This document shows, in pieces, positions 217 to 25,196 of a DNA stretch of 64,000 nucleotides. The stretch's first letter is position 1. The number at the start of each line of letters is the position of its first letter. The notes beneath the pieces are model-generated. The model was not told the DNA's origin and searched no databases. It saw only the letters and a list, made by a program, of their open reading frames with translations. The stretch covers positions 1-64,000 of the forward strand of contig JAKLKC010000035.1 of assembly GCA_023150875.1 (NCBI GenBank), read 5' to 3'. A program made the position numbers and the translations under genes. This DNA comes from Myxococcota bacterium (lineage in GTDB: Bacteria > Myxococcota_A > UBA796 > UBA9615 > JAKLKC01).

Positions 217-2598
217 TTACGGGCGGACCTCCAGCTCCGCGTCCCCACCCGCTCCGGAGAGCCGGAGCAGCACCGCTCCCCAGGGCTCCGCCGGATCCGG
301 AGTGGCGCCGGTGCCCGGATCCGCGGGGACCAGGCGCACCCGCACGGCCCCGAGGTCGCCGGGGACGACGTAGGTCGCCTCCGGGGGAGCCCGGGGCGGC
401 ACCCGGGGAGGGGGGCCGGGGACCATCAGGGCGTCCACCTCGGTGACGCCCAGGGAGCGGGCCGCCGCCAGCGCCGTCTCCACCACGCGGAAGGGGAGGC
501 TCCGGTCGGCGGCCAGCAGCAGGCCCGCGGCCCCCTCCGGCCTCTCCCCGGGACCGGCGAGCCTCGGGGCGAGGGCGCCCGCCAGCAGCCGGGGAGCCGG
601 CCCCCCGTCCACCTCCAGGGCGGCGACGGTGGCGATCCGCTCCCCGTCCACGAAGACCGCCTGCCTGCCGATCTGCACCGCTGGCGCCACGGCGGCGGGG
701 GGAGGGGCCCGGCCCGTGGGGGGATCCAGGTGGGACCAGGCGGCGAACTGGGGGGCGAGGGCGCTCCACAGGCGGGCCCTCTCCCCGGACAGACCGAGCA
801 CCAGCGCCCCCTCCGCCCCCGTCGCCAGGCACAAGGAGGCGGCGGCGATCCCCGCGGCGCGGCGGAGCCGGCGGGCCTCCCCGGGGCCTGCGCCCTCGAT
901 GGAGGCCCTCACCTTCCGGAAGACCCCCCAGGCCACGACCGCCAGGGCGAAGGCCGAGAGGGCCAGCACCGCCTCCCGGCGCCGGGCCAGCGCCACCACC
1001 GCCTCCGACCGCGCCGCCCGGTCCAGCCCCGCGATCCAGGCCCCCGCCGCCGCCGCGTCCTCCCTCGCCAGGGCGGCGGCGGCCGCCGCCCCCACCGCCG
1101 CCACCGCCGCCAGGCCCCGGGTCGCGGCGTCCCTCCCCGGAAGGAGCGCCGCGCCTGCGAGCCACGCCCCGGCCCCCACCGCCGCCACCAGCGCTCCGCC
1201 TCCTCCCCCCGCCCAGGCGCCGAAGGCGGCGGCGGCCAGCACCCCCGCGACTCCCCTCCACCGGCTCCGCGCCCCCGCCTTCCGCCGCTCCCCCGGCGCC
1301 ACCCCCAGCGAGAGGAGCAGCGCCGCCGTCGCCGCCCCGCCCAGGAAGCGGGCGGCGTGGGTCTCGCTGGAGCCCGCCTGGAAGACCAGGAAGCGGGCCG
1401 CGGGATCCAGCTCCGCGGAGTGGGCGCGGATCGCCGCCCACCCCGTGAAGGCCCCCAGCAGCCCCAGGGTCCAGGGGATCCCCGCCGCCGCCACGCCCGC
1501 CGCCCCCGGTCCGCCCCGCTCCCGCCCCGCCCGCGCCGCCGAGGCCGCGGCGATGACCGCGAAGGCGGCCATCACCGCCCACGCGCCCCATCCCCCCAGC
1601 CGCGCGATCTCCGCGGGCGCGTGCTCGCCGCGGTAGCCGATCCCGAGCACCAGGCCCGCCATGGCCGCCCAGATCCCCGCCCGTCCGGCCGAAGCGCGCC
1701 ATCGAGGCGGAGCGGGGCGGGGCGGCGCCCTCCCGCCGGGCAGAGCGGCCAGCACCTCCTCCATCGAGGCGGGGCGCCCCGACGGGTCCTTGGCCAGCAT
1801 CCGGGCCACCAGGGACTCCACCTCGCCCGCCACCGCCACGCCCCGGTCCGAGAGGCGCGGCGCCGGCCGGGAGAGGTGGGCCTGGAGCAGGTCCACGTAG
1901 CCCTCGGCGACGAAGGGAGGGGCCCCGGCGAGGAGCTCGAACCACATCGCCCCCAGGGCGTACACGTCGGCCCGCCGGTCGACGCCCCGGCCCCACCACT
2001 GCTCCGGCGGCATGTACGAAGGCGTACCGACCGGCGCCCCGGTGATGGTGACGGGCCCCGCCTCGGGTCCGTCCGCCCGGGCCACCCCGAAGTCCAGCAC
2101 CCGCACCGAGATCCGCCCGCCGTCCGCCCCCTCTTCCAGGAACACGTTCCGGGGCTTGAGGTCCCGGTGGACGACGCCCGCCCGGTGGACCGCGGCCAGC
2201 ACCTCGGCCACCGCGCGGACGATCCCCGTCGCCTCCTCCGGTGGGAGGCGTCCCCGCTCCGCCAGCGCCCGGCCGAGGTCGCGCCCCCGGAGCAGGTCCA
2301 TGACCCCGAAGGGGTGGCCCCCGCGGGTGGCACCGAAGGCGCGGATCGGCACCACTCCGGGGTGGCCCACGTCCCGGGCGACCCGGGACTCCCGCTCGAA
2401 CCTCAGGGCCCCCGCGGGGTCCTCGGCGGCGGTGCGGGACAGCACCTTCAGCGCCACCCTCGCCCCCGTGGCCTCCTCGATCCCCTCGTACACGAAGCCC
2501 GCGCCACCGCTCCCGAGGACCCCCAGGATCCGGTAGCCCGGGACCTCGTCCCCCGGCCCCAGCGGCCCCGCCGCCGCGGCCTCCGCCCCCTCGCTCAA
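217..2598 (-). CDS. Ser/Thr protein kinase with multi-TM segment and ExbD/TolR-like C-terminal domain
   Basis: 793 aa. The start is taken as TTG at 2598, which overlaps the stop of the upstream regulator in a TTGA. Residues about 22-290 form a Hanks-type kinase: glycine loop GSGGAGFVYEG, catalytic Lys in VALKVL, catalytic loop HRDLKPRN (about 143), metal-binding LDFGVA (about 168), and MPPEQ where APE is usual. About six to eight hydrophobic helices fill residues 300-615. The tail, about 636-724, resembles the periplasmic ExbD/TolR fold: a VFVDGERI strand, then LLLAADRSLPFRVVETALAA followed by a GVTEVDAL strand. Inferred role: a membrane-anchored kinase that phosphorylates cytoplasmic targets on sensing an envelope signal. 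Coupling to the AAA+ regulator suggests a shared pathway. The kinase is certain from its motifs; the ExbD assignment is by eye. Confidence 0.93.
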   Translation of the reverse strand: MSEGAEAAAAGPLGPGDEVPGYRILGVLGSGGAGFVYEGIEEATGARVALKVLSRTAAEDPAGALRFERESRVARDVGHPGVVPIRAFGATRGGHPFGVMDLLRGRDLGRALAERGRLPPEEATGIVRAVAEVLAAVHRAGVVHRDLKPRNVFLEEGADGGRISVRVLDFGVARADGPEAGPVTITGAPVGTPSYMPPEQWWGRGVDRRADVYALGAMWFELLAGAPPFVAEGYVDLLQAHLSRPAPRLSDRGVAVAGEVESLVARMLAKDPSGRPASMEEVLAALPGGRAPPRPAPPRWRASAGRAGIWAAMAGLVLGIGYRGEHAPAEIARLGGWGAWAVMAAFAVIAAASAARAGRERGGPGAAGVAAAGIPWTLGLLGAFTGWAAIRAHSAELDPAARFLVFQAGSSETHAARFLGGAATAALLLSLGVAPGERRKAGARSRWRGVAGVLAAAAFGAWAGGGGGALVAAVGAGAWLAGAALLPGRDAATRGLAAVAAVGAAAAAALAREDAAAAGAWIAGLDRAARSEAVVALARRREAVLALSAFALAVVAWGVFRKVRASIEGAGPGEARRLRRAAGIAAASLCLATGAEGALVLGLSGERARLWSALAPQFAAWSHLDPPTGRAPPPAAVAPAVQIGRQAVFVDGERIATVAALEVDGGPAPRLLAGALAPRLAGPGERPEGAAGLLLAADRSLPFRVVETALAAARSLGVTEVDALMVPGPPPRVPPRAPPEATYVVPGDLGAVRVRLVPADPGTGATPDPAEPWGAVLLRLSGAGGDAELEVRP

Positions 2599-4121
2599 GG
2601 CCCGCCCCGCCTCAGCCCGAACGCCCGGATCAGGTCGTTCAGGTGGGAGCGGGCGACGTCCAGCCGCCGAGCCGCCTCGGAGACGTTCCCGCCGGACGCC
2701 TCCAGGGCCTCCGCCACCAGCCGGGCCTGGAAGCGTCGGGTGGCCTCCTGGAAGGTCGCGGCCCCCGCCTCCTCGGGATCGGGGCGGTCGGGGAAGACGT
2801 GCCGGGCCGACACCGTCCCCGCCCCCTCCCCCGCGGCGCGGATCCCCGCCGCCTCCACGGCGTGGCAGAGCTGGCGGACGTTCCCCGGCCACTCCGCGGC
2901 CGCCGCCGCCGCCAGCGCCCCCGGGCCCAGCTCCAGCCGGGGCAGCCGGTGGCGCCGGCACGCCTCGTCCAGGGCGTGGCGGGCCAGGAGGGGGACGTCC
3001 CCGGCCCGCTCCCCGAGGGAGGGCACGCGGATGGGCAGGACCAGCAGGCGGTAGTACAGGTCCTCGCGGAACCGACCCTCCTCCTTCGCCCGGGCCAGGT
3101 CGGCCCGGGTGGCGGCGATCACCCGCACGTCCGCCACCTCCGGACGGGTGCTCCCCAGGCGGTAGTACTTCCGGGACTGGAGGAGCTGGAGCAGCTTGGC
3201 CTGAGCGGGCGGCGGGAGCTCGGCCACCTCGTCCAGGAGCAGGGTCCCCCCCTCCGCGGCGGCCACCTTCCCGTCCACCCTGCGGGAGGCGGTGGAGTGG
3301 GCCCCCGGCATGGCGCCGAACAGCTCGCTCTCCACCAGGTTCTCGGGCAGGGTGGCGCAGTTCAGCTCCACGAAGGGCCGGCGGGCGCGGGGGCCGGCGT
3401 CGTGGATGGCCCGGGCGATCTCGGTCTTGCCCGTCCCCGTAGGGCCGGTGAGCAGGACCCCCACGTCCAGGGGGGCCACCAGGGCGACCTGCCGGAGGAG
3501 GTCCGCGAAGGCGGGGCTCCGGCCGACCATGCCCTTCAGCCCCAGGCGCTCCCGGTAGGGGAGGGTCGGGTCCCGCTCCTCGCGCTCCCGCTCCCGCGCC
3601 AGCAGCCGCGTCGCCAGGGGCCCCAGGTGGGTCGCGAACGCCTCGGCCCGGAGGCGATCCCCCTCGTCGAAGGGCCCCGGGGCGGCCCGGCCCTGGAGGT
3701 AGAGCACCCCCACGGCCCGCGCTCCCCCGACGGGGGCGCACAGCACCGCCCGGATCCGGTTCGCCGCGACGCTCGCCTGGCCCTGGAAGCGGGGATCGTC
3801 CACCGCCGACGCGGTGCTGACCGTCCTCCCCGTGGACAGGGCCTCGGCGACGATCCCCCGGGAGATCTCCGCGCGGATGGACGCGACGTCCCCGTCGGAG
3901 CACGCCCGGGCGGTCCACCACCGGGGCGACCCGGCGCCGTCGCCGCCCTCGTGGAGGGCCAGGTAGCCCCGCGTCGCCCCCGTGACCCCCACGATCAGCC
4001 CCAGGGCCTCCCGCAGGAAGTGGGGCAGGTCCTCCGCCTCCCCCAGCTCCAGCAGCGCGAGGTACAAGTCCCTCTCGACGCGGAGCCAGGCGAGCTCGCG
4101 GTCCCGAGGATCGTCGGACAC
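2595..4121 (-). CDS. GAF-AAA+-Fis transcriptional regulator (enhancer-binding-protein type, altered GAFTGA loop)
   Basis: 508 aa, ATG start with GGAGGC upstream. Residues about 20-180 are GAF-like. An AAA+ domain follows (about 200-430) with Walker A GPTGTGKTEIA, Walker B GGTLLLDEVAEL and the sensor region RFREDLYYRLLVLPI. A Fis-type helix-turn-helix ends the protein (GGNVSEAARRLDVARSHLND). Architecture and length match sigma54-dependent activators. However, the loop that should read GAFTGA and contact sigma54 reads GAHSTA after ELFGAMP. That suggests loss of sigma54 contact, so it may regulate another polymerase form or act as a repressor. No phosphoacceptor receiver is present, so input is probably through the GAF domain and/or the kinase encoded just downstream. 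Confidence 0.95.
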   Translation of the reverse strand: MSDDPRDRELAWLRVERDLYLALLELGEAEDLPHFLREALGLIVGVTGATRGYLALHEGGDGAGSPRWWTARACSDGDVASIRAEISRGIVAEALSTGRTVSTASAVDDPRFQGQASVAANRIRAVLCAPVGGARAVGVLYLQGRAAPGPFDEGDRLRAEAFATHLGPLATRLLAREREREERDPTLPYRERLGLKGMVGRSPAFADLLRQVALVAPLDVGVLLTGPTGTGKTEIARAIHDAGPRARRPFVELNCATLPENLVESELFGAMPGAHSTASRRVDGKVAAAEGGTLLLDEVAELPPPAQAKLLQLLQSRKYYRLGSTRPEVADVRVIAATRADLARAKEEGRFREDLYYRLLVLPIRVPSLGERAGDVPLLARHALDEACRRHRLPRLELGPGALAAAAAAEWPGNVRQLCHAVEAAGIRAAGEGAGTVSARHVFPDRPDPEEAGAATFQEATRRFQARLVAEALEASGGNVSEAARRLDVARSHLNDLIRAFGLRRGGP

Positions 4122-4142
4122 GGGGAGCCTCCGCCCGGGATC

Positions 4143-5357
4143 CTAACCCGGATCCCGGGGCCGGGGGGCCGCGGGCCGGGCGCGGCGGGGGGACCGCCCC
4201 CCCAGGGCCGCCCTCAGGTCGGCGATGAGGTCCCGGGCGTCCTCCAGGCCCACCGAGAGGCGCACGTAACCCGGCGCGATCCCCGCGTCCCGCAGCTCGG
4301 CCTCGGAGAGCTGCCGGTGGGTCGTCGAGGCCGGGTGGACCGCCAGGGAGCGCACGTCCCCCAGGGTGGGGGCCCGGGTGATGAGGCCCAGGCCGTCCAG
4401 GAAGCGCCTCCCCCCCTCGCGCCCCCCCTCCAGCTCCAGCCCCAGGATCCCGCTCGGGCCCGCCAGGAAGGGGGTCGGGCGAGGATGGCGCACGTCCCGG
4501 ACCTCGGGCCGGGTCCGGAGCCACGCCGCGATCCGGGTGGCGGTCCGGGCCTGGCGCTCCACCCGCAGGGGAAGGGTGGGCAGGCCCCGCCCCAGCAGCC
4601 AGGCGGTGAAGGGATCGGCGGCGCTCCCGAGGTCCGCGGCCACCGCCCGGGCCCGGGACACCCAGAGGGGCTCGCCCGCCACCACCCCCGCCAGGACGTC
4701 GCCGTGGCCCGAGAGGTACTTGGTGGCGCTGTGTACCACCAGCGACGCCCCGTGCTCCAGGGGGCGGCACAGCACCGGCGTCGCGAAGGTGTTGTCCACC
4801 ACGAGGGGGAGGCCCGCCCCCGCCGCCACCTCGGCCCAGCCCGGCAGGTCGGCGACCTCCAGCGTGGGGTTGGCGATGGTCTCGCAGTAGAGCAGGCGGG
4901 TCCGGGGGCGCAGCGCCGCCCGCGCCGCCGCCGGATCCCCCGGCGGGGCCGTGGACAGCTCGATCCCCAGGCGCGCCAGCAGGCCGGTCAGCAGGGAGCG
5001 GGTGTTCCCGTACAGCGTCGAGGCGGCGACGACGTGGTCCCCGGACCCCGCCGCGCCCAGGATCGCCGCGGAGATCGCCGCCATCCCCGACGAAGTCAGC
5101 GCCGCGTCGCCGGCTCCCTCCAGGTCCGCCAGCCGCCCCTCCACCTCGGCCCGCGTGGGGTTTCCCAAGCGGGAGTAGGACCATCCGGGGGACCGGCCCG
5201 CCAGGACCTCCGCCATGGCCTCGGCGTCGTCGAAGGCGAACGCCGACGTCAGGTAGATGGGGGGAGAGGTGGGGCGGGGCGGCGGCCCCGGGGCGTCACC
5301 GCCCGCTGGCCCGTGGACGCAGCGGGTGGCGAAGGACGCGGGCGGACGTCGGCTCAC
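4143..5357 (-). CDS. Cys/Met metabolism PLP-dependent enzyme (cystathionine/methionine gamma-lyase or O-acetylhomoserine sulfhydrylase family)
   Basis: 404 aa, the usual length for this fold-type I family. The GTG start at 5357 overlaps the stop of the upstream glycosyltransferase in a GTGA. Family landmarks are YSRLGNPT near the N-terminus, TSSGMAAISAAI, the PLP Asp in VVDNTFATP, the Schiff-base Lys in SATKYLSGHGD, and the C-terminal VRLSVGLED. It acts in the cytosol on sulfur amino acids, by gamma-elimination, gamma-replacement or sulfhydrylation. Sequence alone does not separate methionine gamma-lyase, cystathionine gamma-synthase and O-acetylhomoserine sulfhydrylase. The gap to the following regulator gene is 21 bp, so it probably belongs to the same operon. 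Confidence 0.95.
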   Translation of the reverse strand: MSRRPPASFATRCVHGPAGGDAPGPPPRPTSPPIYLTSAFAFDDAEAMAEVLAGRSPGWSYSRLGNPTRAEVEGRLADLEGAGDAALTSSGMAAISAAILGAAGSGDHVVAASTLYGNTRSLLTGLLARLGIELSTAPPGDPAAARAALRPRTRLLYCETIANPTLEVADLPGWAEVAAGAGLPLVVDNTFATPVLCRPLEHGASLVVHSATKYLSGHGDVLAGVVAGEPLWVSRARAVAADLGSAADPFTAWLLGRGLPTLPLRVERQARTATRIAAWLRTRPEVRDVRHPRPTPFLAGPSGILGLELEGGREGGRRFLDGLGLITRAPTLGDVRSLAVHPASTTHRQLSEAELRDAGIAPGYVRLSVGLEDARDLIADLRAALGGRSPRRARPAAPRPRDPG

Positions 5358-6922
5358 GGTTCCCTCCCTCCCATCGGACCGGTCACCCGCAGCAGGGTGC
5401 CCTCGGGCCAGTCGCGCCGGTCCCGCACCTCGTAGTCCCGGGCGATCTCGTTGGCCTCCACCCGGAACATGGGCGCCGCCGGCAGGTCGTAGAGCGCGAT
5501 CCAGACGTCCTCGCCGTGGCGCAGGTGGGCGTCCAGCAGGGGGCGCAGGCGCTCGCCGTCCACCTGGGTGAACGTGTACAGCGTCCGCCCGCCGGGGAGC
5601 GCGAACGGGTTGCCCCAGTAGGGGTCCACCGGGACGAACTCCGGGAGGCCCGGCGGGGTCCCGAAGCGGTGGGGCCGCCAGGGGGACAGGAAGGCGTAGG
5701 CGGGATCGACCCGGTCCTTCTCGTCGTCCCCGAAGGTGGGGGGGGCGATGAGGAAGGCCGCCTGGCGCTCTCCCCACGCGCCGGCCAGGGTGGCCACCGG
5801 CCGGTGGGTGGTCCCCGCCGCCCCCACGGCGGCCCGGGCCCGGGCGTGGGTCCCCACGAAGAACGCCACGTTCCCCGCCGCGACCGCGCCCACCGCCCCG
5901 AGCGCCGCCAACGCGGCCCCCGTCCGGCGGGAACGCGCCGCCCCGTCCACGGCCGCCCCCGCCAGAAGCAACACCGCGGGCAGGACCCCCAGGTAGTAGG
6001 GGAACTGCGCCGTCGAGGCGACCCCCGACGCCAGCAGGGCCAGGAGGATCCCGCCGTACACGCCGACGTGGACGAGGAGGTAGCGGCCGATCCCCTTTCG
6101 CTCCCGGGCGGCGACCGCGGCCCCCGCCAGCACCAGGGGCACCAGCGGCACCAGGACCCACGCGGGCCCGAAGCGGGTCACGAGGGCCGGCACCACGGCG
6201 CGGAGCACCGCGGGGACGGGGGTGGGCGCGTTGATGTAGCCCTCGCCACCGGCGCTGGTCAGGACGGTGGGCAGCATCGGCGAAGCCAGTGCGACGGCGG
6301 CGGCGGCGGCGGGGAGGAAGCGGCCCAGGCGGTCCCCGTGCAGGAGCAGCAGCGCGAGGCCCTGGGCGGCGACGACGGCCACGCCCAGGAAGTGGGTGTA
6401 GACGGTGGCGGTCGCCGCCAGCACCCAGGGCCACGAGGGCCTGCCGTCCCGCCACAGGAAGGAGCGGGCGAAGGCCCAGTGGCAGAGGGTGACGACCAAG
6501 GCGAACAGGGGGTAGTCGTTGACCTCCAAGGAGTAGAGCGCGTGGTAGGGCGACAGGGCCAGCAGCAGCGCCGCGGCGGCGGCTCCGCTTCGGCCGAGGA
6601 AGGTCCGGCCCAGGCCGTACACCGCGGGGACGGTGGCGACGGAGAAGGCCAGGGATGTGAGGATCCACGCCGCAGGCCGGGCGTCCAGGGCCTGAACGCC
6701 CGAGAAGACCAGCGAGTAGAGGGGCGGATGGACGCCGACGAAGAGGGTGAGGCAGGTCTTCCAGTCGCCGGCCTCGAAGGACCGGGAGTAGTCGGCGAAG
6801 TAGGTGGCGTAGGCGAGGGTGATCTGGTTCCACCGGAAGGGCCAGCGAGAGGCGCGCACCACCACCGCCAGGACCGCCAGGGGGACCAGCAGCGCGGGGC
6901 CGGCGAGCTTCGGGCGGATCAG
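5354..6922 (-). CDS. GT39/PMT-type integral membrane glycosyltransferase
   Basis: 522 aa with about ten hydrophobic helices, then a soluble C-terminal domain (about 380-520). The N-terminal loop holds an acidic stretch and VHPPLYSLV, the HPP-type motif of the dolichyl-phosphate-mannose/ArnT (PMT_2) superfamily. Such enzymes move a sugar from a polyprenyl-phosphate donor to a lipid or protein on the outer face of the inner membrane. The start is unusual: no ATG, GTG or TTG lies in frame before the first membrane helix. A CTG at 6922 overlaps the stop of the previous gene (CTGA) and sits just after GGGAGGAG. The first conventional alternative is a GTG about 19 codons later, inside TM1. The acceptor is unknown. 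Confidence 0.88.
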
Positions 6923-8634
6923 GGGCTCCTCCCGGGGGCAGGCGGGGCCGGGGCCGGGCGGCCGCTCCCCGCCCCGGACCTGCGCATCAGGTGGAGTTCG
7001 AAGGGGACGCGGGGGGAGGGAGAGCGCACGATCCCCGCGGGGGAGTACGCGGCCAGGGCGTCGCAGGCCCGGGCGGCCCCGGCGGGATCGGGGAAGAGGT
7101 CCCCGTGGGGGGTCAGGGGCAGCCCCCCCTCGCACCGGAACGGCGCGGTGGAGGCCACCACCTCCGGCCCCTCCCCCAGGGCCTCCAGGGCCCCGGCGGG
7201 ATCGGCCTCGGCGGTGGGGAGGATCCGCAGGTCCCGGCCGTGGACCCGGGCGAAATACTCCAGGTAATACGCATAGTTGAAGGCCGTCTGGTAGTCGCAG
7301 GGGATCGCCGGCTCCCGCAGGAACAGGACCCGCGTGCCCGCGCCCCGGCGGGGGGGCAGGGCAGCCAGGACCGCGGCGAACCCCAGGTCGTCCCGCACGG
7401 GCGGCCCGGTCCAGCTCTGGGGGCAGCGCTCGTCCAGGACGGGCAGGGGGGCGAGGGTGGCGGCGAAGGGCGCGGCGAGGGGGCCCGGGGCGCCGAGTGC
7501 GTTGACGCCGTAGGTGGCGAGAGCCGCCGCGGCGGTGAGGCCGGCATACCCGGCCCCGACGGGGGTGCGGGAGGCCCGCCGCAGGCCGTCGGCGGCGAGG
7601 AGGGCCAGGGCGGGGCCGACGGGGTAGAGCAGGCGCTCGTATTTCTTGGGGACCGCCAGCAGCACCAGCAGCGAGCCCAGGGCCCAGGCGGTGACCAGGG
7701 GCCACCCGTCCCCCCGGGGGGCGAAGCGGCGGGCGCGGGGGTGGAGGCCGACGGCGGCGACGGCGGCCAGGAGGATCCCCGTCAGGGCGGGCCCCAGCAG
7801 GAGCCCGGCGGTGGCGCCGGGGTACCAGAGCAGGTGGGCGGCGAGGGGGGCGGTGGGGTCGTTGGCGGCGGCGCTCTGGCGGCCGTACTCGGCGAGGGAG
7901 TGCCAGCGGGCGGCGTACCAGGGGAGGGCGAGGGCGGCGGGGGCCAGGGCGAGGGCGGCGATGCCCGCGAGCCCTCCCCCCGGTCCCCGCCGCGCCCGGG
8001 CCCACAGCGCGGCGGCGACGGGGCCCCAGGCATAGAAGGCGAAGGTCTGCTTGGAGAGGAGGCCGAGGGCGAGGGCGAGGCCGGCGAGGGCGGCGGGGCC
8101 GGGCCGGGCGAGGCCCCCCGAGCGGACCAGGGCGAGCACCAGGGCGGCGCCGAAGAAGGGGAGGGCGCCCTCGGTCATGACGTGCCGGGAGAGGCCGGCG
8201 GCGAGGGGGAAGGAGGCGTAGAGGAGCGCGGCGAGCAGGCCGGTCCATCCGGTGCCGAGGGCGGCGCCCAGGGCGTAGAGCAGGGCGAGGGTCCCCAGGT
8301 GGAAGAGGGTGGGGGCGGCCTCGACGGCGAGGGACTCGGGGGAGGTGGCCCCGGCGGCCCGGGCGATCCCCGCCACCGCCAGCGAGTAGAGGGGAGGGTA
8401 GGTCCCCCAGTCCTCGAGGGCGGCCCGCTCCACGGTCCGCAGCGCCCCCTCCTCCTTCAGGGAACCCAGGAAGAGCTCGACGGTGCCCACGACCCCCTGC
8501 TCGTCCCCGTCGCGGATCCGCGTGTCCCGATCCACCCACCACAGGTTGGTGGCGGCGACCCCGGCGAGCAGGACGCCGAGCAGCAGGCGGGGGAGGGCGC
8601 GTCTCCAGGGGGGCGGCCCGGCATCGGACGTCAT
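6919..8634 (-). CDS. GT39/PMT-type integral membrane glycosyltransferase
   Basis: 571 aa. It starts MTSDAGPP, followed by one TM helix and a first loop with the DGDEQG acidic motif typical of PMT_2/ArnT-like enzymes. A long series of Ala/Leu-rich helices reaches about residue 400, then a soluble periplasmic tail. It is the paralogue and upstream partner of the following glycosyltransferase, with a 4-nt overlap. Together they may glycosylate an envelope lipid or protein. No Shine-Dalgarno sequence precedes the ATG. A TAGAAT hexamer lies 6 nt before it, suggesting a leaderless transcript that starts the five-gene run down to the kinase. Confidence 0.92.
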
Positions 8635-19910: not shown

Positions 19911-20471
19911 ATGGAAGAGGAGCGCGACCTCATCGCCCGGGCGACGGCAGGCGACGCCGGGGCCTACGCGGAGCTGGTGAAGCGACACCAGAGGCCGGTC
20001 TACGCCCTGGCGATGAGGATGCTGCGGGACCACGACGACGCCGACGACGTCGCCCAGAGGGCCTTCCTCCGGGCGTGGCAGAACCTCGCCGGCTTCGAGG
20101 GCCGGTGCGGCTTTCGGAGCTGGGTGTTCCGGATCTGCGTGAACCTGTGCCGCAACCACCACCGCGACCGCCGCCGATTCGTCGACGGGGCGCCCGCCTC
20201 GCGGGAGCCGAGCCAGGAGGCGGTGGGGTCGGATCGGCTGGAGCGAGAGGAGAGGATGGCGAGGATCCGGGCCGCGGTGGCGTCGCTGCCCGAGAAGCAG
20301 CGGATCACCGTCGAGCTGAGGGTGTACCAGTCCTTGCCGTTCCGCGAGATCGCGCTGGCGATGGAGACGACGGAGAACGCCGCGAAGGTGAACTTCCACT
20401 ACGCCGTGAAGAACCTCAGGGCTCGGGTGGGCCCGGCGACCGAACTGGAGCCGGTCGCGGGCCGGGGATGA
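19911..20471 (+). CDS. ECF RNA polymerase sigma factor
   Basis: 186 aa, standard ECF size. Region 2 covers about 10-80 ([37 protein letters not shown], and -10-recognition [16 protein letters not shown]). Region 4 covers about 125-180 ([20 protein letters not shown], then [15 protein letters not shown]). It directs RNA polymerase to stress or envelope promoters. Its stop overlaps the anti-sigma start in ATGA, so the two are coupled. The Spy/CpxP-like gene follows in the same unit, pointing to an envelope-stress or metal-stress response. Confidence 0.97.
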
Positions 20472-21298
20472 CACGAATGGACCCAGGATGCGCGAAGACG
20501 CGGGAGGGCCTCATGGACCTCCTCTGCGGCGGGGGAGAGGAGGACGCGGCCCGGGAGGCCCGGCGACACCTCGCCACCTGCGGCGCCTGCCGGGCCGAGG
20601 CGGACGAGCTGGCCGACGTCCTGGCCCAGCTCGAAGGGGACGCGGAAGACGGCCCGCTGGGCGGCGGAGTCGCCGATCCCGGCCCGGAGTACTGGGAGGG
20701 GTTCGCCGCCCGGGTCGTCGCCCGGGGTGAGGGACTCGGCCTCGCCCGGCCCGCCGCCGAGCTTCCCGCCCGTCCGGCCCGGGATGGGGCCGCCGTGATC
20801 GCCCTGCGGTGGCCTCGGGATCCCCTCGGGTGGGCCCTCGCCGGGGGGGTGGCGGCGGCGGCGGCCTCCCTCTGGTTCGCCCTCCCGGGGGGAGGCGACG
20901 CCGGAGGGGTGGGGGATCCCGTCCCCGTGGCGGTGGAGGCCCCGGCCCGGCCGCCGCCGGAGCCGCCGGTGGGCGGGGAGGCCGCCGGCGAGCTCGATGA
21001 GTCCGATGGCCTGACCGACGAGGACCTCGTCCGCATCGAGCGGCGCGTCGCGGAGGTCATCCCCCCCGGGGAGCCCTTGCTCCCGCCGCCTCCCGCGCCC
21101 GATCCGGCCGACGCGGCGCCGTCCCCGGGCCCGGCGCCGGGCCGGGCCGCGGAGGGAGCCGCCGGACGCGGCCCGAAGGTCCGATCACCCTTCGTCGTCG
21201 AGGAGATCGCGGGAGGGGACGTGTACGACGCCCTGCAGGACCTCACCGAGGAGGAGATCGAACGGCTCCTCCACCGCCTCGAGGCGGAGCCGGGCTGA
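20468..21298 (+). CDS. membrane-anchored zinc-finger anti-sigma factor
   Basis: 276 aa. The N-terminal anti-sigma domain carries HLATCGACRAEAD (His-x3-Cys-x2-Cys, about residues 35-47), the ZAS zinc motif. One TM helix follows (LAGGVAAAAASLWFAL, about 121-140). The periplasmic part is Pro/Ala-rich and ends with a helical segment (ALQDLTEEEIERLLHRLEA). Family role: holds the cognate sigma inactive until an envelope signal triggers release or proteolysis. Start ATG at 20468 overlaps the sigma stop. Confidence 0.92.
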   Translation: MTRMDPGCAKTREGLMDLLCGGGEEDAAREARRHLATCGACRAEADELADVLAQLEGDAEDGPLGGGVADPGPEYWEGFAARVVARGEGLGLARPAAELPARPARDGAAVIALRWPRDPLGWALAGGVAAAAASLWFALPGGGDAGGVGDPVPVAVEAPARPPPEPPVGGEAAGELDESDGLTDEDLVRIERRVAEVIPPGEPLLPPPPAPDPADAAPSPGPAPGRAAEGAAGRGPKVRSPFVVEEIAGGDVYDALQDLTEEEIERLLHRLEAEPG

Positions 21299-21349
21299 GC
21301 GAGAACGCCGTGCCGAGGCCGGTACCCCCGGGCCTCGTCCGAGGAAGAC

Positions 21350-21982
21350 ATGAGGACTTCGATCCTGACCCCCTTCGCGGCCGCGGCCCTCGCCCTCGCC
21401 CTCGCCGCCCGCCCCGCGCCGCTGGCCGCCGGGACCCCCGAGTCCGGCGAGGCGTCCGCGGCCCCCGCCGGGAAGTACCCCCGGGAGCGCCTGCTGGAGC
21501 GGGTGGAGGTGGTGCGCACCCAGGCCATCCTCCGCGCCCTGGACCTGGAGGCCCCCCAGGCGGAGGGCCTCTTCCCGGTGCTCAACGCCTTCTCGGAGCG
21601 GCGGAAGGTGCTGACCGAGGAGCGCTGGGTCCTCAACCGCGAGGTGGCGGCCGCCCTGCGGGGGGAGCCGCCCGATCCCGCGCGGCTGGCGGGGATCATG
21701 GACCGGGTGGTCGCCAACAAGAGGGCGACCCTGGACGTCGAGATCGGGGAGTACGACGCCCTGAAGCGCCAGCTCGATCCCGTCCGCCTCGCCCGGTACT
21801 ACGACGCGAGCGTGCGGTTCGAGAAGCACATGCGGAAGCTCATCGGCGAGGTGAAGGTCAAGGGCGGCAAGCCGGGTGGAGGCGATGGCGCGGGGCGCCC
21901 CGGGAGGCCCCGGCCGGCGGGGGCAGGGCGGCAGGAGGCGGCCCCGGGGAGCGGCGGGCCCGCGCCGACCCCGGGGGAGTAG
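21350..21982 (+). CDS. Spy/CpxP-like periplasmic protein (heavy-metal-sensor type)
   Basis: 210 aa with a clear signal peptide (to about residue 27). The helical core, about 42-160, contains ERVEVVRTQAILRALDLEAP, NAFSERRKVLTEERWVLNR and LAGIMDRVVANKRATLDVEI. This all-alpha, charged periplasmic pattern resembles Spy/CpxP/ZraP proteins that follow sigma/anti-sigma pairs. The C-terminal 40 residues are Gly/Pro-rich and disordered. Likely a periplasmic chaperone or sensor feeding the anti-sigma factor. The LTxxQ motif of true CpxP is not obvious, so the family call is tentative. It is 51 bp downstream of the anti-sigma gene. Confidence 0.82.
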   Translation: MRTSILTPFAAAALALALAARPAPLAAGTPESGEASAAPAGKYPRERLLERVEVVRTQAILRALDLEAPQAEGLFPVLNAFSERRKVLTEERWVLNREVAAALRGEPPDPARLAGIMDRVVANKRATLDVEIGEYDALKRQLDPVRLARYYDASVRFEKHMRKLIGEVKVKGGKPGGGDGAGRPGRPRPAGAGRQEAAPGSGGPAPTPGE

Positions 21983-22003
21983 ACCCCCGGCCCCGCCGGG
22001 GTC
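21982..22003. terminator. hairpin between convergent genes
   Basis: GACCCC-C-GGC and GCC-GGGGTC pair around a CCC loop, with one bulged C. The stem sits exactly between the stop codons of the plus-strand Spy-like gene and the minus-strand transporter gene, so it could end transcription from both sides. There is no T-tract. Confidence 0.45.
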
Positions 22004-23888
22004 AGTGTCCGCCGCCCCCGCCCCGGTTGGGCGCGGCGTTCCAGATCCTCAGGCAGAGCACCGTGCCGACCACCGCGAAGGGGATGAGGAAGAGGGGCCA
22101 CCAGGTCCAGCTCTCGGTGGTGAGCTTGCCCAGCGCGTAGGCCTGGAGGCCGGAGCCCAGGTACACGAAGCCGTCGATGATGCCCACCGCCGTCGCCGCC
22201 GCCCGCCGGCCGCCGAAGTCCATGGTGGCGGTGCCCGACAGAAGGCCGTGGGTGCCGATCACGCACAGGCTCATCAGGAACGCCAGCAGGCCCAGCGCGA
22301 CGGGGGTGAGGGTGAGCTTCGGGCCGGCGGGGAGGGTCCGCGTGTCGCCGGCGGTCATCACCGGCCGGGGATCCTCGATCCGGAGCGCCAGCTCCTGCCC
22401 GTCCCTCACGACCCGGGCCTCGATGACCCCCGTGGAGACCGGCAGGTCGCTCCCGTCCACCTTCGGCCCGGTGCTGCACGTGCACGCCTCGGCGTCCCAC
22501 CGCGGCGCCGCGGCGCGGCCCTCGAAGCGCTTCGCCACCGCGCAGCGGGCGGGGATGCAGGCCACGGCGCGGGAGACCTCGGACCAGTCCCCCGGCGTCG
22601 GCACCCCGGCGATGGACACGATCCGATCCCCCACCTTCAGGGCCCCGTCCTCGCCCTTGACCCACCCCACCTCGGCGCGGGTGCCCCCGAGGGAGAAGGC
22701 CATCAGCACCGTGCACACCGCCAGGAGGGCGTAGAGGCCCCCCGCCGCCGGGGCGCGCCGGGACTGGAAGAAGATGTCGCTGACGTAGCCGGCGACGTTG
22801 CCGCCGATGACCCCGGCCACGAAGAGCAGGCCCCCCCAGCCCCCTTGCAGGAAGGGGCCGAGGGCGCACAGCGCGCCGGAGATGGCGTAGACCGCCCGGC
22901 GCCGCCCCACCGCCCGGGAGGCGAGCCAGAAGAAGCCGGTGGCCACCGCGAACGCGGCCGCCACCGCCCAGGGCCAGGTCCACTCGCCCCGGACCAGCGG
23001 GTGGGACGAGGGCAGGACCCACACCTCCTTCACGTAGATGGGGACCCACTGCATGATCCCCTGGCGGAGGACGCCGGTGCAGAACTCGATGAGGGCGATG
23101 GTGAGGATCACGGGGTGGGTGAAGATCCGCTTCATCACCTCGAAGGTCCCCGCCGGGGCGCCCGAGCGCCCGGAGTCGGCGTCGCCGGTGTCGAAGTCCT
23201 GGTGTCCGGCCTCGCTCGGGCGGTCCCGGAGCACGAAGAACTCGATGACACCGATGATCCCCAGGAGCAGCGCGGGGGCGTAGAAGACGACCCAGGTCGG
23301 CTGCTCCCCCGAGCCTCCCCGCTTCGCCCAGTCCAGGATCCAGGCGTTGCCGGTGTAGGCGAAGAAGATCCCCGACGAGATCATCGTGCCGAAGATCCCC
23401 GAGAAGCCGCCCCTCTCGCGCACGTGGAACCACGAGGCGTTGACCTTCACGATGGCGACGGCCGCGAACGACTGGAAGTACATGTTCACGCCGTACAGCA
23501 CGCTCATCCAAAGGCGCACGTCCACCGCGCCGGGATCGGCGCTGCGCAGCATGTCCTGGATGAACACGCCCATCGCCAGGTTGGCGAGGGTGGACCCGAC
23601 CAGGCTGATCAGCATCGCCTTGCGGCCGCCGATCCGGTCGGTCACGGGGCCGTTGAGCAGGAACGAACAACCGTAGACCCACGTCCCCACGGCGAAGATC
23701 AGCCCGAAGTCCTCCTTGGTCATCAGGTCGCCCAGGGAGGTCTTGGCGACGGTCAGGTTGTACCTGCCCATGTACAGGAAGGCGTAGGCGAGCCCCAGCG
23801 GGAACCAGTTGAGGAACCTCCGGGTGCGGAACGCGGCGGCGTGGCGCGGCGGCGAGGAGGGGTGGGCGGCGGGGGTCGCGGTGCTCAT
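22002..23888 (-). CDS. MFS organophosphate:phosphate antiporter-family transporter with PDZ-like periplasmic insertion
   Basis: 628 aa, about 180 longer than GlpT/UhpT. TM1 FLNWFPLGLAYAFLYMGRYN and TM2 followed by VTDRIGGRKAML match the OPA branch of MFS. The second half has GGNVAGYVSDIFFQSRR, then helix AAGGLYALLAVCTVLMAFSL. Residues about 400-520 are a hydrophilic insertion opening GWVKGEDGALKVGDRIVSIA, the PDZ signature (LKVGDRIVSIAG). It contains four Cys (two in CIPARC, two in CTC). The protein then returns to membrane helices (LLAFLMSLCVIGTHGLLSG, ending in WWPLFLIPFAVVGTVLCL). By helix count the insertion lies between canonical TM9 and TM10, on the periplasmic side. Two extra helices appear between TM7 and TM8. 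The substrate is unknown; OPA members exchange phosphorylated metabolites for phosphate. Confidence 0.93.
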   Translation of the reverse strand: MSTATPAAHPSSPPRHAAAFRTRRFLNWFPLGLAYAFLYMGRYNLTVAKTSLGDLMTKEDFGLIFAVGTWVYGCSFLLNGPVTDRIGGRKAMLISLVGSTLANLAMGVFIQDMLRSADPGAVDVRLWMSVLYGVNMYFQSFAAVAIVKVNASWFHVRERGGFSGIFGTMISSGIFFAYTGNAWILDWAKRGGSGEQPTWVVFYAPALLLGIIGVIEFFVLRDRPSEAGHQDFDTGDADSGRSGAPAGTFEVMKRIFTHPVILTIALIEFCTGVLRQGIMQWVPIYVKEVWVLPSSHPLVRGEWTWPWAVAAAFAVATGFFWLASRAVGRRRAVYAISGALCALGPFLQGGWGGLLFVAGVIGGNVAGYVSDIFFQSRRAPAAGGLYALLAVCTVLMAFSLGGTRAEVGWVKGEDGALKVGDRIVSIAGVPTPGDWSEVSRAVACIPARCAVAKRFEGRAAAPRWDAEACTCSTGPKVDGSDLPVSTGVIEARVVRDGQELALRIEDPRPVMTAGDTRTLPAGPKLTLTPVALGLLAFLMSLCVIGTHGLLSGTATMDFGGRRAAATAVGIIDGFVYLGSGLQAYALGKLTTESWTWWPLFLIPFAVVGTVLCLRIWNAAPNRGGGGGH

Positions 23889-24156: not shown

Positions 24157-24218
24157 CGCGATCCCCTCGCGCGCGTTCCCTCCTCGGGGCCGCGCCCTTC
24201 CCGGCTGGTGGAGGCCCG

Positions 24219-25196
24219 ATGTCCCCGAAGTTCACCCTGGCCTGCGCGTCCGCCCTGCTCGTCGCCCTCGCGGTGCCCTCGGGCGATGCCGGCGCGGCGG
24301 TGGAGGCGAAGTCCTACTACAGGGACCCCCTGAAGGAGGAGTACACGTTCGCCCCCTCCAGGGCGGCGGACGGCGACCCCGAGACCGGGTGGATCGAGGG
24401 CCAGGAGGGCGACGGCGCCGGGGAGTGGCTGCAGCTCGACGTCCCCAAGGGGGAGATCGTCAAGCTCCAGGTCCAGACCGGCATCGGCAAGGACGCGGCC
24501 ACGGCCGCGAGGTACGGGCGGGTGAAGGACGCCACCATCGAGCTCTTCTCGATGGACGACGACCAGAAGCTGGTGCCCATCAAGCAGATCCCCTTCACCT
24601 TCCAGGACGTCCCCGGCCTCCAGGAGATCCCCATCGGCGGTCCGGTGAAGGTCGGCTCGGACCTGTGGGGCGGGAAGATCAGGCTGACCATCCGCAGCAG
24701 CTACAAGGGGACCGACTTCGACAGCAACGTCGCGGTGGGGGACGTCCTGGCGACGTTCAAGGAGGACACCGCGCCGACCATGGTGCTCGACGCCAGCGGC
24801 GACGGCCCCGGCGGCTCCCGGGACGCCCTGGTGGACGAGGACGAGAAGACCGCGTGGATCGCCGACGGCGGGGTCGGCCAGTGGATCGAGGTCGAGGCGG
24901 CGGACTGGGCGATCAGCGGCGTCGGGCTGGTGCCGGGCAACAACAAGAGCCCCGCGACCTGGAAGGCGAACGCCCGGGTCAAGGACGTGGAGATCACCGT
25001 CAACGGCGTCGGCCAGCTCCACACCTTCGCGGACAAGCCGGTGATGCAGTGGGTGGCCTTCCCCCCCAAGGGGGGCACCAACGGCGGCCACTACGGCGGA
25101 GTGAAGATCGAGATCAAGTCGGTCTACCCGGGCACCGAGAACCAGAGCGCGGCGATCTCCGAGGTGCAGATCCGGGCGATCTCGTTCGGAGGCTGA
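24219..25196 (+). CDS. exported protein with two discoidin-like (F5/8 C / NADase-type glycan-binding) domains
   Basis: 325 aa; the ATG follows GGAGGCCCG. Signal peptide MSPKFTLACASALLVALAVP to about residue 25. Two repeats share a pattern: (a) SRAADGDPETGWIEG then GEWLQLDVPKGEIVKLQVQT (about 45-90); (b) DALVDEDEKTAWIADG then GQWIEVEAADWAISGVGLV (about 205-245). The D-x-DxxTxWIxG signature with the following WI/LEL strand is the discoidin-like, NADase-type glycan-binding fold. Predicted to bind sugars at the cell surface or in the periplasm. It has no catalytic domain and stands alone, divergent from the transporter. Confidence 0.88.
   Translation: MSPKFTLACASALLVALAVPSGDAGAAVEAKSYYRDPLKEEYTFAPSRAADGDPETGWIEGQEGDGAGEWLQLDVPKGEIVKLQVQTGIGKDAATAARYGRVKDATIELFSMDDDQKLVPIKQIPFTFQDVPGLQEIPIGGPVKVGSDLWGGKIRLTIRSSYKGTDFDSNVAVGDVLATFKEDTAPTMVLDASGDGPGGSRDALVDEDEKTAWIADGGVGQWIEVEAADWAISGVGLVPGNNKSPATWKANARVKDVEITVNGVGQLHTFADKPVMQWVAFPPKGGTNGGHYGGVKIEIKSVYPGTENQSAAISEVQIRAISFGG

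Follow-up and report, generated by a model that had tools for sequence, protein, structure and literature searches.

Why should a putative organophosphate transporter carry, within its second half, a domain that resembles those of site-2 proteases? The question is raised by a gene in a stretch of 64,000 nucleotides from a Myxococcota bacterium, referred to below as the window. An earlier note, made from the sequence alone, had described the product as an organophosphate-type MFS transporter with a Cys-containing PDZ-like domain in a periplasmic loop and two further helices, and had proposed that the PDZ could sense exposed C-termini and couple uptake to periplasmic proteolysis or protein-folding stress. 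The description has held up under profile searches, structure prediction and comparison with relatives; the proposed function is not supported. The features of the transporter framework are the following.

22002..23888, minus strand: coding sequence of a 628-aa OPA-like MFS transporter with PDZ-like insert (uninterrupted open frame starting with ATG; Pfam MFS_1 match above cut-off, E 2.8e-23; homologs sharing the architecture)
23232..23837, minus strand: N-terminal MFS half, TM1-TM6 (residues 18-219; AlphaFold2 helices, GlpT alignment)
23763..23765, minus strand: R42 in TM1, aligned with GlpT R45 (GlpT alignment)
23064..23066, minus strand: R275 in TM7, aligned with GlpT R269 (GlpT alignment)
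22839..23000, minus strand: extra TM hairpin between TM7 and TM8 (residues 297-350; helices of the model, absent from GlpT and from all non-PDZ relatives)

MFS proteins usually have two halves of six TM helices each, 12 in all, and in some families 14. Fourteen are predicted here, namely the 12 canonical ones and a hairpin between TM7 and TM8 instead of the TM6-TM7 place used by known 14-helix families. Its helices lie at residues 306-325 and 329-348 in a full AlphaFold2 model built from the window protein and 25 relatives (pLDDT 86.7, pTM 0.87). Because GlpT has nothing to align between TM7 and residue 351, residues 297-350 are extra. The two helices that the earlier note placed between TM7 and TM8 are therefore seen in the model and missing in GlpT.

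To which MFS family does the core belong? Members of the OPA family (GlpT/UhpT/SLC37) exchange organophosphate for phosphate. Foldseek with the full model ranked SLC37A2 (E 3.7e-11), SLC37A4 (G6PT) and GlpT (1.7e-9) at the top, and the best 50 of the 303 matches to the PDB at E <= 0.001 are MFS-fold transporters, e.g., SLC37, GlpT, VGLUT and SV2A; identity in the structural alignments to GlpT and SLC37 is 15% or less. A family profile reaches GlpT in the PDB at E 1.9e-12. The NCBIfam matches are to the PgtP, GlpT, UhpC and UhpT models (phosphoglycerate, glycerol-3-phosphate, hexose-phosphate), all distant and far below cut-off, and the curated OPA family models are not reached (TIGR00881 scores highest, with 94.5 bits where 407.75 would be required). 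R42 and R275 stand at the places of GlpT R45 and R269, which we take to be the substrate-binding arginines; R42 is kept in all PDZ and non-PDZ homologs having a residue there, and R275 in 76/76. Together with the MFS_1 match and the GlpT/SLC37 fold matches, these arginines support the OPA-type call. Among 95 positions near-invariant in PDZ-less relatives, 83 are retained in the PDZ proteins, including R42, K148, H155 and R275, and by this measure the transport core is intact. A phosphate ester is the presumed substrate. Among plasmid relatives, only distant GlpT/UhpC-type genes were found.

The insert in the second half comprises the following elements.

22308..22688, minus strand: PDZ-like insert, putatively periplasmic, separating TM9 from TM10 (residues 401-527, ~125 aa; profile, fold, model)
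22560..22673, minus strand: PDZ core, with first strand, L-x2-GD strand and helix with invariant W435 (residues 406-443)
22473..22559, minus strand: Cys-rich insert in the PDZ fold, C444-x4-C449, W464-D465, C469-x-C471 (residues 444-472; gapped against RseP PDZs)
22374..22427, minus strand: C-terminal PDZ strands with invariant R495 (residues 488-505)
22338..22352, minus strand: membrane-proximal AGDxR motif (residues 513-517; A513, G514 and R517 in 50/50 homologs, D515 in 96%)

In the full model, the domain occupies about residues 406-523. Pfam PDZ_6 matches residues 415-443 under its curated cut-off (18 versus 27 bits), and because the single sequences tested score under the PDZ threshold of Pfam, such proteins will tend to be annotated automatically as plain MFS transporters. 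A profile of 15 homologous inserts, compared to the PDB, found site-2-protease PDZ domains (3wkl, E 2.8e-8), and hhalign gave 96% probability against the PDZs of RseP from the window's relatives, the match spanning the first strand, the L-x2-GD strand, the W-containing helix and the R-x-G hairpin. Modeled alone, the insert has a mean pLDDT of 90.6, and Foldseek ranks RseP, MucP and other site-2-protease PDZs first, with target-normalized TM-scores of 0.54-0.72 against individual PDZs of RseP or MucP, a moderate similarity with the large insert present. By profile, profile-profile and fold comparison, the domain is thus predicted to be a PDZ of the site-2-protease (RseP) type, as the structure prediction and profile search proposed in the earlier note both returned; a non-PDZ fold is not borne out. 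A chance PDZ match is rejected by the profile, hhalign and Foldseek results and by recurrence in the phylum. No other stand-alone or differently fused copy of the domain was seen in the phylum, where weak matches are to RseP-like proteins and to sigma-70 factors, the latter attributed to chance.

The predicted fold departs from RseP in several places. According to hhalign, the helix that follows the first strand is shorter, and a Cys-rich insert of ~30-40 aa between the PDZ helix and the hairpin is the transporter's own. In PDZ domains, the usual carboxylate-binding loop sits before the first groove strand. No conserved motif of this kind is recognizable by sequence where it would be expected, at the end of TM9; the first groove strand follows TM9 directly and is variable except for V407. 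Residues W435, W464, R495, A513, G514 and R517 are each invariant in 50/50 homologs. The cysteines singled out in the earlier note are conserved as well, with C444, C449, C469 and C471 all present in 50/50 homologs and D465 in 88%. The four invariant cysteines most likely brace the PDZ fold as two disulfides.

On which side of the membrane does the domain lie? The N-terminus of MFS proteins is usually inside, and since the two extra helices restore direction, the TM9-TM10 loop would come to lie outside. Net charge is positive in the predicted inside loops 2-3, 8-9 and, mostly, 10-11; the 7a-7b turn carries +3 to +5 in all 38 PDZ members, and the 7b-8 turn zero. From MFS topology and the charge rule, we infer that the PDZ-like domain is periplasmic. 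The position assigned to it by the earlier note is supported by this topological argument, and a cytoplasmic location is not borne out.

How widespread is this architecture? Among the 379 genomes sampled for Myxococcota, the phylum of the window, 35 carry it at E < 1e-8, with the domain order that had been claimed for the window. Because of this recurrence, chance and an error of gene fusion or assembly, an artefact that the earlier note had considered, are excluded. The named loci with the architecture belong to Myxococcota and 'Deltaproteobacteria', with one 'Oligoflexales' record (L010). A genome assigned to the window's phylum (G086) encodes exactly the protein found in this last record, so the record's label is probably wrong, and an occurrence in Bdellovibrionota is discounted as a probable mislabeling of the assembly. 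Beyond Myxococcota, coverage consists of one scan with peptide patterns taken from the window protein. Sister proteins that lack both hairpin and PDZ are present in the window's own class, LCP-89, Zixibacteria, Planctomycetota and Bdellovibrionota.

When the inserted columns are left out of the unrooted tree, the PDZ proteins all fall on one side of a single branch (support 100). Hairpin and PDZ occur together in 38/38 of these members and are both missing in 38/38 relatives: the TM7-TM8 loop measures at least 60 aa in all PDZ members versus at most 19 in all others, and the TM9-TM10 loop at least 117 versus at most 32. The tree needs a single change, and multiple origins of the insert were rejected; neither addition was ever lost within the sampled clade. 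Although the tree has no root, the wide occurrence of the PDZ-less form favors one gain. A myxobacterial ancestor would have acquired the hairpin and the site-2-protease-type PDZ in one step, as far as can be seen. In 25/26 PDZ genomes there is no second family member (E 1e-20), the exception (G093) holding a distant relative of 32-40% identity. Omega of the PDZ part is 0.10-0.31 in 13/14 close pairs versus 0.05-0.13 for the core; the exceptional pair, at 0.66 (L117 against L098), involves a fast-evolving insert, which in L117 is also ~30 aa longer than in the others. These ratios indicate that the PDZ-like domain is under purifying selection, less constrained than the core.

Did the core change when the additions were made? 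Eleven positions consistently distinguish PDZ from non-PDZ members, and eight of them lie in TM5 and TM8, helices that come together where the two MFS halves adjoin. TM5 holds five of the 11 (P 0.00094) and TM8 three (P 0.02), both values being uncorrected for 12 helices.

23346..23402, minus strand: TM5 stretch (residues 163-181) with five of the 11 clade-separating substitutions, including the loss of D179

At residue 179, an aspartate invariant in PDZ-less proteins is replaced by threonine in the PDZ clade. Across window positions 23346-23402, the TM5 motif is LISLGYFFAFDWG-like in PDZ-less and MISSGIFFAFTVN-like in PDZ-bearing proteins. The pattern suggests that the hairpin and PDZ additions are tied to the transporter's moving parts, or that the substrate changed; because all changes fall on one branch, the link between TM5/TM8 and the insert amounts to a correlation seen in one event only.

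Gene neighborhood offers little continuity. Across the clade, the PDZ transporter has no conserved gene neighbor, and this includes protease, stress and regulatory genes. In the window, positions 19911-21982 (plus strand) resemble an operon of the envelope-stress type convergent with the transporter gene: an ECF sigma factor (19911-20471, plus strand), a possible anti-sigma factor in the frame that follows it to 21298 (plus strand; H-x3-C-x2-C start, no Pfam match) and a small protein weakly like Metal_resist (21350-21982, plus strand). Divergent from the transporter gene, 24180-25196 (plus strand) encodes F5/8 type C (discoidin-type) and NADase_transloc matches. A long frame with a protein kinase domain lies far from the transporter at 220-5295 (minus strand), and at another locus (L125) a kinase frame 37% identical to it adjoins the transporter. 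At four loci of one genus only, an NmrA/NAD(P)-binding gene stands directly upstream of the PDZ transporter (L120, at 6294-7328, L121, L122 and L123). No RNA elements were found within the window.

What, then, could the domain do? In the explanation we prefer, the protein would be an inner-membrane organophosphate exchanger-like MFS protein, or a receptor derived from such a transporter, with the PDZ fold on the periplasmic side of its C-terminal half followed by the conserved membrane-proximal AGDxR segment. The domain would work sterically: it would either cover the substrate path like a lid or filter, or give a periplasmic partner a platform on which to dock, rather than read free C-termini. 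We hold this explanation tentatively, at a probability of about 45%. It is favored because homology to RseP PDZs and an intact core are combined with the lack of a recognizable peptide-carboxylate site, and the TM5/TM8 substitutions are consistent with additions mechanically coupled to the core. Several points speak against it. The PDZ part changes more rapidly than the core and could be no more than passive decoration; the TM5/TM8 changes may reflect a substrate switch; no gene neighbor is conserved; and the TM-scores against individual PDZs of RseP or MucP stay at 0.54-0.72, with a large insert.

Could the cysteines make the domain a switch? They might bind metal or form reversible disulfides, and the domain would open or close the transporter accordingly. 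The invariance of all four and of W464, the frequency of D465 and the arrangement in two close pairs (Cx4C and CxC) fit such a role. An even set of cysteines in the oxidizing periplasm is most simply read as structural disulfides; the region matches no metal-binding motif in the PDB or Pfam, and one homolog (L022) has a fifth cysteine. We regard a metal or redox switch as unlikely, albeit the best placed of the alternatives to a steric role.

More doubtful is that the insert is a neutral remnant of a PDZ, with no function beyond not disturbing the transporter. Its faster evolution and variable length would suit this, and the extracellular domains of PepT can be removed without loss of transport (PMC4597091). 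Against it stand the ten invariant residues (the four cysteines with W435, W464, R495, A513, G514 and R517), omega well below 1 in 13/14 pairs and the retention of the domain throughout the sampled clade. We consider equally improbable the more elaborate proposal that a protease-type PDZ was taken up, together with the hairpin and a remodeled TM5/TM8 interface, to serve as a gate under redox, metal or ligand control; if true, it would define a directly regulated 14-helix type of transporter, known so far only from myxobacteria.

The sensing role put forward in the earlier note fares worse. A sensor of misfolded periplasmic proteins would bind exposed C-termini in its groove and alter transport or recruit a protease. 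The RseP-type fold and the topologically predicted periplasmic position agree with this, and in this window only, the gene ends near the convergent cluster of ECF sigma factor, possible anti-sigma factor and Metal_resist-like protein. The carboxylate-binding loop is unrecognizable, the first groove strand is variable except for V407, the helix behind the first strand is cut short, the sigma cluster lies on the opposite strand and other genomes show no conserved neighbor, all of which makes sensing very unlikely. To a UhpC-like receptor that binds a phosphate ester and signals through the PDZ as output or partner-binding module we likewise give little credence: UhpC is among the NCBIfam matches and the conserved arginines would suit a receptor as well as a transporter, but those models are all distant and far below cut-off, and no regulatory gene is conserved beside the transporter.

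A steric lid or docking platform can be set beside several known systems. The window protein resembles GlpT, UhpT and SLC37 in fold and in the places of the TM1 and TM7 arginines, and differs from them in its 14 rather than 12 TM helices and in the PDZ-like insert. No description of an MFS-PDZ fusion was found in the open-access literature, most subscription journals lying outside this scope; both modules are known families, and it is their combination and the four-cysteine insert that seem undescribed.

In RseP, the PDZ domains act by size exclusion, filtering what reaches a site buried in the membrane (PMC7728848). Those of RseP and other site-2 proteases are like the present domain in profile, fold, profile-profile match and, as far as topology predicts, in a periplasmic place between TM helices, whereas here the domain sits on a transporter, carries the four-cysteine insert, is shortened after its first strand and has an unrecognizable carboxylate loop. 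In the 14-helix MFS proteins Rv1410 and MHAS2168, a functional periplasmic extension works with a partner lipoprotein (PMC10576003). Fourteen helices and a periplasmic extension are common to both systems; in the Rv1410/MHAS2168 (DHA2) proteins, however, the extra helices lie between TM6 and TM7, rather than between TM7 and TM8, and the extension is one of TM11/TM12, not a folded domain.

To our knowledge, the MFS fold rarely harbors a large folded domain. The extracellular domain of mammalian PepT1 and PepT2 (MFS, POT family) is inserted between TM9 and TM10. It is likewise a folded domain within the MFS fold and exposed outside, but it is made of two immunoglobulin-like domains, unrelated to the PDZ, and belongs to another transporter family. 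It binds trypsin, is dispensable for transport and has been proposed to be a docking platform (PMC4597091). The PepT precedent indicates that such domains can bring a partner to a transporter, and the joint rise of hairpin and PDZ, inseparable in our sample, offers a natural experiment on how accessory domains modify MFS transport.
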